From: a virus
Reading direction: 5' to 3' (one strand)
Length of the DNA stretch: 22,222 bases
Virus record (IMG/VR): IMGVR_UViG_3300045996_003090
Span: 1-22,222 of that record
Shown: in pieces, positions 9,283 to 21,884 of the stretch
Layout: every line of letters starts with the position of its first letter
Position numbering within the stretch: position 1 is the stretch's first letter
Program-made: the position numbers and the translations under genes
The notes under the pieces: generated by a model
Told to the model about the DNA's origin: nothing
Seen by the model: the letters and a program-made list of their open reading frames with translations, nothing else
Databases searched by the model: none

Positions 9283-9300
9283 ATTTGTGCCCACACAAAT
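9283..9300 (+). other. hairpin just upstream of HNH endonuclease 1
   Basis: ATTTGTG (9283-9289) pairs perfectly with CACAAAT (9294-9300) around CCCA. It is unusually AT-rich for this window and ends 10 nt before the ATG at 9311. It may control translation of the endonuclease or mark the cassette boundary. Confidence 0.5.
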
Positions 9301-9310
9301 GGTTTTGAGT

Positions 9311-9712
9311 ATGTGGCGAACCATCCCCGACTTTCCCGGCTACGAAGTGTCCGATTCCGGGCAGGTGCGCAGCTACCGCAGGCGCGGACACGGCGGCCTG
9401 AAAGCGACGCCACGCCTGCTGAAGCTGCAACGGTACGGCACCTACTACCACGTCCGGCTCACCCGCACCGACGGGAAGATCATCCAGATTTCCGTCCACG
9501 TCCTCGTCCTCGAAACGTTCGTCGGTCCCCGCCCCGAAGGGCTGTGGGCGCTGCACAGGGATGACGAGCCCACGAACAACCACCTCGACAACCTGTACTG
9601 GGGCACGGTGGGTCAGAACCTCAAGGACGCATGGCGGAACGGCAGGTACGCCTCCCGCGTGTTGAACGTTAAACCCGGCTCACGCCGGAGAGAGGTGGAT
9701 CATCCCGGATAG
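9311..9712 (+). CDS. NUMOD4-HNH homing endonuclease (HNH1)
   Basis: The 133-residue protein opens with a NUMOD4 signature, WRTIPDFPGYEVSDSGQVRS (2-21). It is followed by an HNH nuclease domain: a VHVLVLETF helix with His63, WALHRDD with His82, then N90-N-H-L-D-N94-LYWGT and N103. Such proteins are free-standing phage homing endonucleases that nick or cut a cognate site and spread by repair. ATG 9311 is preferred because it begins exactly at the NUMOD4 domain; GTG 9287 and ATG 9299 are in frame but lie in a hairpin. No strong ribosome-binding site is present. The last codons (GTG GAT CAT CCC GGA TAG) overlap the new 5' end of the decoration gene in another frame. It separates protease from decoration gene, normally adjacent, marking it as an insertion. 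Confidence 0.88.
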   Translation: MWRTIPDFPGYEVSDSGQVRSYRRRGHGGLKATPRLLKLQRYGTYYHVRLTRTDGKIIQISVHVLVLETFVGPRPEGLWALHRDDEPTNNHLDNLYWGTVGQNLKDAWRNGRYASRVLNVKPGSRRREVDHPG

Positions 9713-19156: not shown

Positions 19157-19657
19157 GTGGCAGCCATAAAAACCGCCTACGGCACGACGACCGCCGGCAG
19201 CGGCGGCCTGACGTCCCTCGCGTCCTCCTCGACGTGGATAGCCGGGTACGAATGGTTCGTCGTGGACAACGCGACGGAGCTGGCGCTGAGCTACCGCCAC
19301 GACGGCAAGGTCCGCGTCGGCACCACGCCCACGATCAACACGGAAATACGCATCTACCTCGTCGCCAGCAACGACGGCACCAACTGGCCCGACGTGTTCG
19401 ACGGCACGCCCTCGGCCGAGACGGTCACGAGCGCCGGCGTGCGTGACGGGTTCGCCAAACTCGCCGCCGTGCTGCCGGTGGACGCGACGACCTCCGACCG
19501 CGATTACCCCTACGAGTTCGACGCGGCCCAGGTGTTCGGCGGATCGCTGCCCAGGAAGTACGCCCTGTTCGTCGCGCACAACACGGGCGTCAACCTGAAC
19601 TCCACGGCGGGCAACCACACCTACCGTTACACCCCTATTTTCGCGACTTCAACTTGA
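19157..19657 (+). CDS. conserved phage tail-region protein; C-terminus replaced by the HNH2 cassette copy
   Basis: The 166-residue protein from GTG 19157 reads SLASSSTWIAGYEWFVVDN, YRHDGKVRVGTTPTINTEIR, WPDVFDGTPSAETVTSAG and FVAHNTGVNLNSTAGNHTY. From memory this is a widespread phage family found beside tail fibre genes, beta-rich and probably virion-associated. Its last ten residues, RYTPIFATST, are encoded by 19625-19654. A diverged second copy of this end, RYTPVYATST plus TAA, lies 718 bp downstream, beyond the HNH2 gene. The present C-terminus therefore appears to have come in with the cassette, keeping the protein functional. The 3' end overlaps HNH2 tail-to-tail by 23 bp. Confidence 0.85.
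   Translation: MAAIKTAYGTTTAGSGGLTSLASSSTWIAGYEWFVVDNATELALSYRHDGKVRVGTTPTINTEIRIYLVASNDGTNWPDVFDGTPSAETVTSAGVRDGFAKLAAVLPVDATTSDRDYPYEFDAAQVFGGSLPRKYALFVAHNTGVNLNSTAGNHTYRYTPIFATST
19625..19657 (+). repeat. recoded copy of the tail-gene 3' end (copy in use)
   Basis: This is the 33-nt segment encoding RYTPIFATST and TGA. It matches 20343-20375 at 24 of 33 bases. The first 11 bases are identical, and the differences lie mostly at third codon positions. Confidence 0.8.
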
Positions 19658-20282
19658 TGGGGCGGGGAGGCTTGGTCAAGGCATCATGGACCGTCCACTT
19701 ACGTTTGAAGACTCTGTCCAAAATGAGCGAGGCGGGGATGCCCGTCTCGCGGGACCACTGCGCGAGCGTAAGGAGTCGGCCGCCGTGTTCGAGGATGCGA
19801 TTGCTGCGTCTGTTGTTGGCCTGATCCTCCTTGGTCGCCCAGCGGACGTTGCCCGGCTCATAGCCCTTACTGTTGTCGATGCGATCGATGGAGTGTTCGC
19901 CGCTCGGGGGGTCGCCGACCGCGACGGCGAACGCCTCGAACGACGCCCGCCACTCCGGGCATACGACGACGCCCCGGCCGCCGTACAGGTGATAGTTCTG
20001 CTGGGACGGGTAGGTGCATCGCGCTATGATCCCTGCCCAGACGCCGTACAGGCGCGTGCGGCGTCGGCCGTGCGTCCTGTTCCTCCGGGCGAGTACTTCG
20101 GAGTTGAGACATCCGCAACTGGCCGTCCGACTGAGGTTGGCGGCAAGGACGCGGGCGGTGTTGCCGCAGTCACAATCGCACGACCAGACGGTGCGCTTTT
20201 GCTTGCCCACGAGGACACTCTCGTGCGAGCGGGCGACGAGCCTACCGAACCGTTGCCCTGCAATGTTTTTGAACGCTGGCAT
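19635..20282 (-). CDS. HNH-type homing endonuclease with zinc-finger N-terminus (HNH2)
   Basis: The 215-residue protein lies against the tail operon. Residues 1-58 carry AGQRFGRLV and a Cys-rich finger (C35, C37, C39, C56, C58). The central nuclease region has the family pattern LYGVWAGIIARC (78-89), YHLYGGRGVVVCPEWRASF (97-115), SIDRIDN (131-137) and GYEPGNVRWAT (140-150), then N/R-rich residues. The C-terminus has a TLAQWSRETGIPASLILDRV helix-turn-helix-like DNA-binding segment. This is a common free-standing phage endonuclease type. AAGGG about 12 nt upstream may serve as ribosome-binding site but can pair in an 8-bp stem. Codon third positions look less GC-rich than in the neighbours. Its last codons lie antisense within the tail gene's new 3' end. 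Confidence 0.88.
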   Translation of the reverse strand: MPAFKNIAGQRFGRLVARSHESVLVGKQKRTVWSCDCDCGNTARVLAANLSRTASCGCLNSEVLARRNRTHGRRRTRLYGVWAGIIARCTYPSQQNYHLYGGRGVVVCPEWRASFEAFAVAVGDPPSGEHSIDRIDNSKGYEPGNVRWATKEDQANNRRSNRILEHGGRLLTLAQWSRETGIPASLILDRVFKRKWTVHDALTKPPRPIKLKSRK

Positions 20283-20291
20283 GCTAGCGCT

Positions 20292-20343
20292 GCCCTTGAA
20301 TGGGGGATTCTATTGACCCCATTGTACGCTACCTGTCAAGGGC
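20292..20343 (-). promoter_or_regulatory. structured leader of HNH2
   Basis: GCCCTTGA (20292-20299) pairs with TCAAGGGC (20336-20343), and inside it ATGGGG (20300-20305) pairs with CCCCAT (20317-20322). On the - strand the putative ribosome-binding site AAGGG lies in the outer stem, so translation could be gated by folding. A perfect TTGACA (20334-20339, - strand) is also present, but no well-spaced -10 follows it. Confidence 0.45.
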
Positions 20344-20375
20344 GTTACACCCCCGTCTACGCCACCTCGACGTAA
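20343..20375 (+). pseudogene. orphan 3' end of the tail gene (RYTPVYATST-stop)
   Basis: This 33-nt remnant encodes RYTPVYATST and TAA, is not attached to any gene body, and is followed at once by GGAGG and the next start. It is best read as the original end of the 19157 gene, left behind when the HNH2 cassette entered at or near CGTTACACC. Confidence 0.75.
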
Positions 20376-20384
20376 GGAGGCCGC

Positions 20385-21884
20385 ATGCTGGGCCGCTACG
20401 TCGATCTGGGCAACCCGGTCGCCGGCCACCCCCTCAACGAGGGCCTGATCTCGTGGTGGCTGCCGCTGCCGAACAACCAGGGCGGCGGGACGCTGTTCGA
20501 CCTGAAGAGGAAGTACGACGGGGCGCTCAACAACGGCCCGGCGTGGGCGCCCGGCCCGAACGCCTTCGCCTCGCTGGACTTCGTGCGGGCCTCCGACCAG
20601 TTCGTCGAGGCGGACTACGCGCCGCTGTCCGCCCTGAGCTGCACGTTCTGGTTCCGCCCCAACTCCCTGGTCAACTACTTCGTGTGGGTGGACACCAACA
20701 ACGGGGCCTCCATCACCCAGGACGTGCGCGTCTACAGCGACTCGGGCGGCACGCTGCACGCCGACTGCAACGGCGCCGACACGACCGTCGCCGGGGTGGT
20801 CGCGGGGGCGTGGAACTTCGCGGCGCTGATTCGGACGGGCGCGGGGACCAACCTCCTGTATCTATGGCCACCCTCGGGCGGGCCGCTCGTCAGTCCGGCG
20901 ACAATGTCTAGCCTAGGTGTCGCCTCCACGAAGTTCCGCATAGGTCGCGCCAAGGACGGGCACGCCTGCGACGGCCGGGCGACCGACGTGCGGCTGTACT
21001 CCCGCGCCCTGGGCGCCGCCGAACTGCGGGGGCTGTACGAGCAGGGATTGCGCGGCCACCCCGACACGCTGAGGCGCTGGTCGCGGCGGGCGTACCTGTT
21101 CGGCACGGCGGGCGGCGGCGGCGGGGGCGTCGCCGGCACGCTGGCCGTGACGCTCGCCGCCCCGACGCTCGCGTCCGCGGGCGCCGCGGCCGTCGCGGGG
21201 GCGGCCTCCCCGACGGCGCCGAACGTGACGGCCGCCTCGGCCGGCACGGTCGCCGTGGCCGGCGCCGCCGCGCCGACGCTGCCCGGCCCGACGCTGGCCT
21301 CGGCGGGCGCGTCCGCCGTCGCCGGGGCCGCCTCGATCACCCTGGCCGCCGCCACGCTGTCGTCCGCGGGCGTCGCCCCCGTCGTCGGGACGCTGGCGCT
21401 GACCGTGCCCTTCGTGGCCACCGTCTCGGCGGGCACCGCGCCCGTCGTCGGCGCCGGCGGCGGCGCCACGCCCGCCCCGACGCTGTCCGCCGCGGGGGCC
21501 GCGCCGGTCGTCGGTGCGCTGGCCGGCACGCTGGCCGCCCCGACGCTCCAGGCCGGCTCGAGCACTTCCGCCAGCGGCACGCTTTCGGTTACACTGGACG
21601 CGGTCACACTTTCGGCGGCGGGTGCCGTGGCCGTCGCCGGGGCGTCGGCGGCCGTCGCCACGGCCCCGACGCTCGCCTCGGCCGGCGCCGCCGCCGTGGC
21701 CGGGCAGTCTTCGGCGACGCTGGCCGGCGTGATCCTGGCCGCCCTCGCGGCGGCGCCGGTGGCCGCCGAAGCCTCGGTCACTCTGCCGCCCCCGACGCTC
21801 GCCGCGGCCGGGGGCGAGACGCCGCCCGGGCCCGCGGCGGGGGCCGACTACTTCCGCCGTTACGTCCTATCCAGAAGGGGGTGA
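20385..21884 (+). CDS. LamG-like virion protein with eleven 21-residue repeats
   Basis: The 499-residue protein starts at ATG 20385, with GGAGG 4 nt upstream. Residues about 15-225 have a concanavalin/LamG-like layout (GLISWWLPLPNN, LSCTFWFRPNS, WNFAALIRTG, FRIGRAKDGHACDGRATDVRLYSRALGAAELRGLYEQG), a fold that often binds glycans. A Gly run (GTAGGGGGG) leads to eleven consecutive 21-residue Ala/Thr/Val/Gly-rich repeats (about 249-479), then a short basic end ADYFRRYVLSRRG. It probably lies on the tail or virion surface and may contact host polysaccharide; that is inference from fold and position. The repeats may form an extended beta-stalk. Confidence 0.8.
   Translation: MLGRYVDLGNPVAGHPLNEGLISWWLPLPNNQGGGTLFDLKRKYDGALNNGPAWAPGPNAFASLDFVRASDQFVEADYAPLSALSCTFWFRPNSLVNYFVWVDTNNGASITQDVRVYSDSGGTLHADCNGADTTVAGVVAGAWNFAALIRTGAGTNLLYLWPPSGGPLVSPATMSSLGVASTKFRIGRAKDGHACDGRATDVRLYSRALGAAELRGLYEQGLRGHPDTLRRWSRRAYLFGTAGGGGGGVAGTLAVTLAAPTLASAGAAAVAGAASPTAPNVTAASAGTVAVAGAAAPTLPGPTLASAGASAVAGAASITLAAATLSSAGVAPVVGTLALTVPFVATVSAGTAPVVGAGGGATPAPTLSAAGAAPVVGALAGTLAAPTLQAGSSTSASGTLSVTLDAVTLSAAGAVAVAGASAAVATAPTLASAGAAAVAGQSSATLAGVILAALAAAPVAAEASVTLPPPTLAAAGGETPPGPAAGADYFRRYVLSRRG
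21129..21821 (+). repeat. eleven tandem 63-bp coding repeats
   Basis: Eleven units of exactly 21 codons run without any indel. A typical unit reads VAGAASITLAAATLSSAGVAP. Positions of V-x-G at the start and S/A-A-G near the end are best conserved. Confidence 0.85.

Follow-up and report, generated by a model that had tools for sequence, protein, structure and literature searches.

How can a gene that has been invaded near its 3′ end by a nuclease gene remain complete, and why does the same short gene end occur a second time beyond the nuclease? This question is raised by the window analyzed here, a 22,222-nt stretch of viral DNA (IMG/VR record IMGVR_UViG_3300045996_003090, positions 1 to 22,222), in which two similar gene ends lie on either side of an antisense gene for a putative homing endonuclease. 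The features of the locus are as follows.

19157..19657, + strand: invaded host gene, 166 aa, in a structural-module neighbourhood; chimeric, with a native body and a cassette-supplied end, as judged from relatives and empty sites
19625..19657, + strand: cassette-supplied 3′ end RYTPIFATST-TGA, CGTTACACCCCTATTTTCGCGACTTCAACTTGA, overlapping the 3′-terminal codons of the antisense nuclease gene
19625..19635, + strand: left copy of CGTTACACCCC, an exact 11-nt repeat delimiting the cassette
19635..20282, − strand: putative homing endonuclease gene, 215 aa, PHROG 374, annotated as HNH endonuclease (E = 1.2e-60; conserved family residues present)
20283..20342, − strand: cassette leader, 60 nt, upstream of the nuclease start; predicted hairpin
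20343..20375, + strand: orphan native 3′ end (stump) RYTPVYATST-TAA, CGTTACACCCCCGTCTACGCCACCTCGACGTAA, beginning with the right copy of CGTTACACCCC (11 nt)
20376..20380, + strand: GGAGG, the ribosome-binding site of the next gene, remaining in place after the stump (compare L001, below)
20385..21884, + strand: next gene, 499 aa, with a Laminin_G_3 domain; syntenic in cassette-free relatives

The cassette comprises 718 bp (19625–20342) and lies within the final 11 codons of the 19157 gene. The two copies of the gene end are identical at 24 of 33 bases: all of the first 11 nt match, and 13 of the following 22. From the proline codon onward every codon differs, five of them silently (P, A, T, S, and T) and two conservatively (I/V and F/Y), and the stop codon differs as well. 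The antisense gene overlaps the cassette's copy by 23 nt, and the ATG of the next gene is at 20385, following the orphan and GGAGG. On both strands of the whole window, no third stretch matched either copy at ≥ 21 of 33 bases, so the doubled end is not a chance resemblance. These facts about the two ends had been given in the original prediction and are correct base for base. The designation “tail gene” used there is only a label, and the 166-aa product had no match in Pfam, PHROGs, or annotated phages.

The invaded gene belongs to a conserved family, with relatives in 45 other viral contigs. In three cassette-free contigs (L001, L002, and L003), the preceding gene, the homologue of the invaded gene, and the next gene follow one another as in the window but without an intervening nuclease; the relatives of the next gene were found through synteny only, and a direct search for them detected none. 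The L001 gene ends in YTPVYANVAA-TAA, followed by TGGAG and then by MLGRYIDLGNPV, which closely matches the start of the window's next gene, and a Val-Tyr pair is a frequent ending in the family. Because the cassette-free relatives run through this VY-type end into the next gene, the stump is ancestral. Furthermore, the orphan shares 6 of 10 residues and 19 of 30 bases with the L001 end, whereas the cassette's copy shares 4 of 10 and 14 of 30; the orphan is therefore the native end, and the copy arrived with the cassette. Comparison with these relatives shows a native gene that was interrupted near its end and was supplied in frame with a diverged end, while its native end persists past the nuclease. 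Thus, the proposed insertion of the nuclease into the 3′ end of the gene is supported, as is the proposal that a homologous, diverged end keeps the gene whole. The check suggested at that time, that cassette-free relatives should run from an orphan-type end into the next gene, was positive in the relatives examined.

The nuclease ORF is intact and carries the conserved residues of its family. Its HNH profile matches were to PHROG 374 and PHROG 3377; no Pfam match was found for it, and its predicted model, which is confident (pLDDT 93.5), matched no solved structure in the PDB. In this model, predicted strands at residues 131–134 and 146–149 are followed by a helix, and Arg134, which is invariant in the family alignment, lies within the putative active-site motif. 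Many HNH families have a histidine at the place in the motif where PHROG 374 has this invariant arginine. The enzymology of this “HNH” family appears unsettled. Relatives of the nuclease occur in > 1,000 phage records, all at < 60% identity. The leader (approximately 20283–20345) is predicted to form a stable nested hairpin (−20.8 kcal/mol, z = −2.2), and no match to a sigma-70-type promoter was found in it. The window also contains a second putative homing endonuclease gene, HNH1 (9287–9712), with NUMOD4 and HNH_3 domains, between two genes of the structural module, and its flanks showed no doubled piece.

Relatives of the PHROG 374 nuclease were gathered from viral contigs, phage records, and bacterial genomes, and were reduced to 284 distinct nuclease units. 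The same-strand translated flanks were compared for each unit, and each candidate was inspected. This survey yielded 14 clear doubled edges including that of the window, eight of them gene ends and six gene starts. The 13 additional edges, a recurrence that had also been put forward as a check, come from at least 13 phages or prophages, including the cultured phage LucasX and bacterial genomes. They are listed below, and the gene names outside the window are our reading of the sequences, not database calls.

Doubled end, window: gene at 19157
Doubled end, L110: terL
Doubled end, L100: DNA ligase
Doubled end, L347: nuclease-like gene
Doubled end, L166: SbcC-like gene
Doubled end, L281: NinB-like gene
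Doubled end, L249: SH3-type wall enzyme; stump fused to the nuclease C-terminus
Doubled end, L099: small gene; stump fused to the nuclease C-terminus
Doubled start, L337: muramidase
Doubled start, L309: terS
Doubled start, L310: head protein
Doubled start, L052: macro-domain gene of Xanthomonas phage LucasX
Doubled start, L070: ssb
Doubled start, L117: RuvC-like gene; stump fused to the nuclease N-terminus

The resulting frequency of about 5% is rough, because the sorting was done by eye, post hoc, on the best-scoring matches; in the weaker cases, L281, L099, and L117, the gene context counts as much as the score. Because GC-rich loci give low-complexity matches in the wrong frame, a codon-shuffle null and control genes were used. 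At an automatic cut of p < 1e-3 under this null, 9 of approximately 278 testable units qualified. Of approximately 855 control genes taken from these loci, at most one, if any, still gave a match at this cut after the explained matches were set aside, i.e., nuclease–nuclease pairs, repeats, low complexity, and one case locus present twice. The comparison of nuclease units with control genes gave a Fisher p of 3e-6 to 2e-5. L244 was rejected as a doubled edge, with paralogous HTH genes flanking its nuclease. Neither L123, with tandem nuclease genes and leaders, nor L136, in which the similarity is between two structural genes, was counted. In a small sample of HNH_3-type nucleases (17 loci), no convincing doubled edge was found.

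Several loci have features of their own. In L047 (4709–6054), TVTINSFLRNL-stop and TISINSFLRTI-stop lie on either side of the nuclease gene, which doubles the 11-residue end of a 59-aa ORF, and the likeness continues beyond the stop codon; judged by sequence, this is possibly a fifteenth case or possibly a repeated leader. In-frame fusions of stump and nuclease are present in L117 (2893–3540, at the N-terminus), L099 (1391–1813), and L249 (2866–3744, the latter two at the C-terminus), so that in these three a scrap of host protein is now part of the nuclease. In LucasX (L052, 2822–2923), the macro-domain stump is directly followed by an annotated rho-independent terminator, which appears to belong to the cassette.

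The origin of a supplied end can be traced best in the L110 terL. Its nearest relatives are five cassette-free contigs (L430–L433 and L436), and the L430 terL is 95.8% identical to that of L110 over 165 residues of the body. The terL genes of all five end in ...SASLDGTHNMQARAVKRVAAAGWT, as does the L110 stump, and the stump with the terminator downstream of it is 86.9% identical to L430 over 176 nt. The L110 terL itself now ends in ...SSAGGGAELASRRQVKAVSSMGWT, unlike L430 (alignment score of 42.5, vs. 111.5 for the stump), and this copy best matches terL lineages that are only 74–80% identical in the body. By these alignments, the L110 terL is a mosaic, and its supplied end is demonstrably of another lineage. 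The cassette and stump are the same in three separate contigs, with identical terL ends. The same terL also contains a large intein-like insert near its ATP-binding motif (L110, 697–2964), so that mobile elements of two kinds may be present in one gene.

Cassette-free relatives likewise resemble the stump more closely than the copy in L309 and L347, and in LucasX in a comparison with four phages; the gap between LUCX_95 and the LucasX stump is 15 nt, and a similar gap of 13 nt is present in phage FLC9. The comparison was mixed in L337, and in L310 the residues did not separate stump from copy, whereas the bases placed the stump closer. In the window, the copy is farther from the relatives than the stump is, and an origin in another lineage is clear only for the L110 terL. 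No donor genome for the window's cassette was found among the relatives examined. The two window copies share 8 of 10 residues with each other, more than either shares with L001, so the donor would be closer than any of these relatives.

Codon usage was compared in 15 pairs of copies (the 14 cases and L047). The same codon was used at 58 of 175 identical residues, versus 68.9 ± 6.1 expected under independent codon choice (z = −1.8), so that, as a test of active recoding, the deficit was not significant. Silent sites are essentially randomised and the residues differ as between orthologs; a foreign allele therefore suffices without selected recoding, and the supplied end fits such a foreign, diverged allele. 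The word “recoded,” used of the cassette's copy in the original prediction, goes further than these pairs allow.

We consider it fairly probable, on the evidence of these genomes, that a cassette consists of a homing nuclease gene and a flanking host-gene piece from another phage lineage, and that it is established by one-sided homing between diverged phages. In a co-infection, the nuclease would cut a cassette-free allele near the edge of the gene. On the gene side, the break would be repaired from the donor phage by homology, which would copy the donor's gene edge, a resistant allele, along with the nuclease gene. The opposite side, where homology to the donor is slight, would be joined illegitimately, and the remainder beyond the cut would become the stump, a step that the anatomy suggests. 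The diverged edge would keep the gene working, would not re-create the cut site, and would offer little homology for precise loss of the cassette. One-sided homing would account for starts and ends alike, for the variable length of the stumps (10 to > 30 codons), for divergence like that of orthologs, and for native flanks past the stump.

Divergence between the copies would equally be expected if the nuclease and a replacement edge diverged by selection traveled as one unit with the same insertion each time, because under either reading an identical copy would re-create the target and provide direct repeats for deletion. The anatomy is indeed that of the fungal hybrids described below, for which such a unit was proposed, the last codons of the nuclease overlap the window copy and tie the two physically, and the shared codons are slightly fewer than independence predicts. 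However, this codon deficit falls short of significance, and the case nucleases share only approximately 50% identity among themselves or with any other sequence in the set; for this reason no unit recurred in a second recipient, apart from the L110 terL cassette with its three contigs. We therefore regard a fixed unit of this kind as doubtful. It is similarly unlikely that this large phage nuclease family is a natural home-and-rescue drive, in which essential-gene edges are invaded and the replacement edges are kept divergent by selection; such a drive would leave the host gene working and the cassette immune to its own nuclease, and would block precise loss by recombination.

The exact 11-nt repeat at both edges of the cassette could suggest that the gene end was duplicated in place and that one copy drifted before a nuclease was inserted between the two. 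This is very improbable: the two terL ends in L110 are of separate lineages, all cases have randomised silent sites, and edge doubling is seen beside nucleases but not beside other genes. The orphan keeps its reading frame and stop codon, as the true last exon after an intron or a bypassed segment would, but cmscan found no Rfam intron family in the insert, the antisense nuclease gene fills nearly all of it and leaves almost no non-coding sequence, and a complete end with a stop codon already precedes it, which makes an intervening sequence highly implausible. The motif is short and the window is a fragment from a metagenome, which might point to misassembly or chance similarity. Such an artefact is scarcely credible when the motif is unique in the window, 13 other cases include a cultured phage and bacterial genomes, control genes are nearly free of doubled edges, and the L110 structure is common to three contigs.

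Mobile ORFs that replace gene ends in fungal mitochondria, which the original prediction had mentioned for genes such as atp6, are described in the literature (PMC3630166). In Glomus mitochondria, atp6, atp9, cox2, and nad3 have an endonuclease ORF, a foreign C-terminus, and duplicated native C-termini, and between the foreign and native C-termini of atp6 the identity is 63.5% for DNA and 91% for protein (PMC3630166); Allomyces atp6 is cited there as the first case. The phage cassettes resemble these hybrids in having an endonuclease ORF near the 3′ end of a gene, an in-frame replacement C-terminus, the native C-terminus downstream, and mostly silent divergence. In both the window and the L110 terL, the ORF lies within the host coding sequence, with a homologous end in frame and the native end beyond, as in the fungal mobile ORFs. 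In contrast, the fungal endonucleases are of the LAGLIDADG or GIY-YIG type and reside in organelles, whereas the phage cassettes carry PHROG 374 nucleases, antisense in the window, and double gene starts as well as ends.

Among phages, the free-standing endonucleases of T4 (seg and mob) are mostly located between genes, cut the coding sequence of a neighbour, and co-convert the flanks (PMC2988022). Like them, the cassettes are intron-less phage nuclease genes adjoining conserved genes. Unlike the window cassette, the T4 nucleases are intergenic or split a gene into working pieces, and gene ends that are duplicated or truncated are not mentioned in this T4 homing review. Split genes are exemplified by nrdA of phage Aeh1, with MobE, and by gene 60 of T4, with MobA (PMC2988022); as in the window, an HNH gene lies within a host coding sequence, but there the host gene stays split into two working parts, whereas the window gene is made whole again by a replacement edge and its severed part is a stump. 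Synthetic home-and-rescue drives (PMC7968924) likewise place a nuclease in an essential gene with a version of the lost part, which in the drives is cut-resistant. The recoding in those drives is engineered, whereas the divergence in the phages looks inherited from another lineage. In the literature searched, largely outside subscription papers, we found no phage description of replacement-edge cassettes.

The doubled edges indicate a recurring route for putative homing genes into conserved phage coding sequences without introns, inteins, or gene splitting, and such cassettes would stitch together genes of different phage lineages. The inner edge of a stump should lie near the original cut, and it may reveal the cleavage positions of these poorly known selfish genes; with the edge near the cut, the target sites of orphan endonucleases could be read from genomes. 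Homing scars can take the form of short orphan peptides next to a nuclease gene, or of odd first or last residues in terL, terS, ssb, or ligase, and this bears on both the annotation and the phylogeny of phages.
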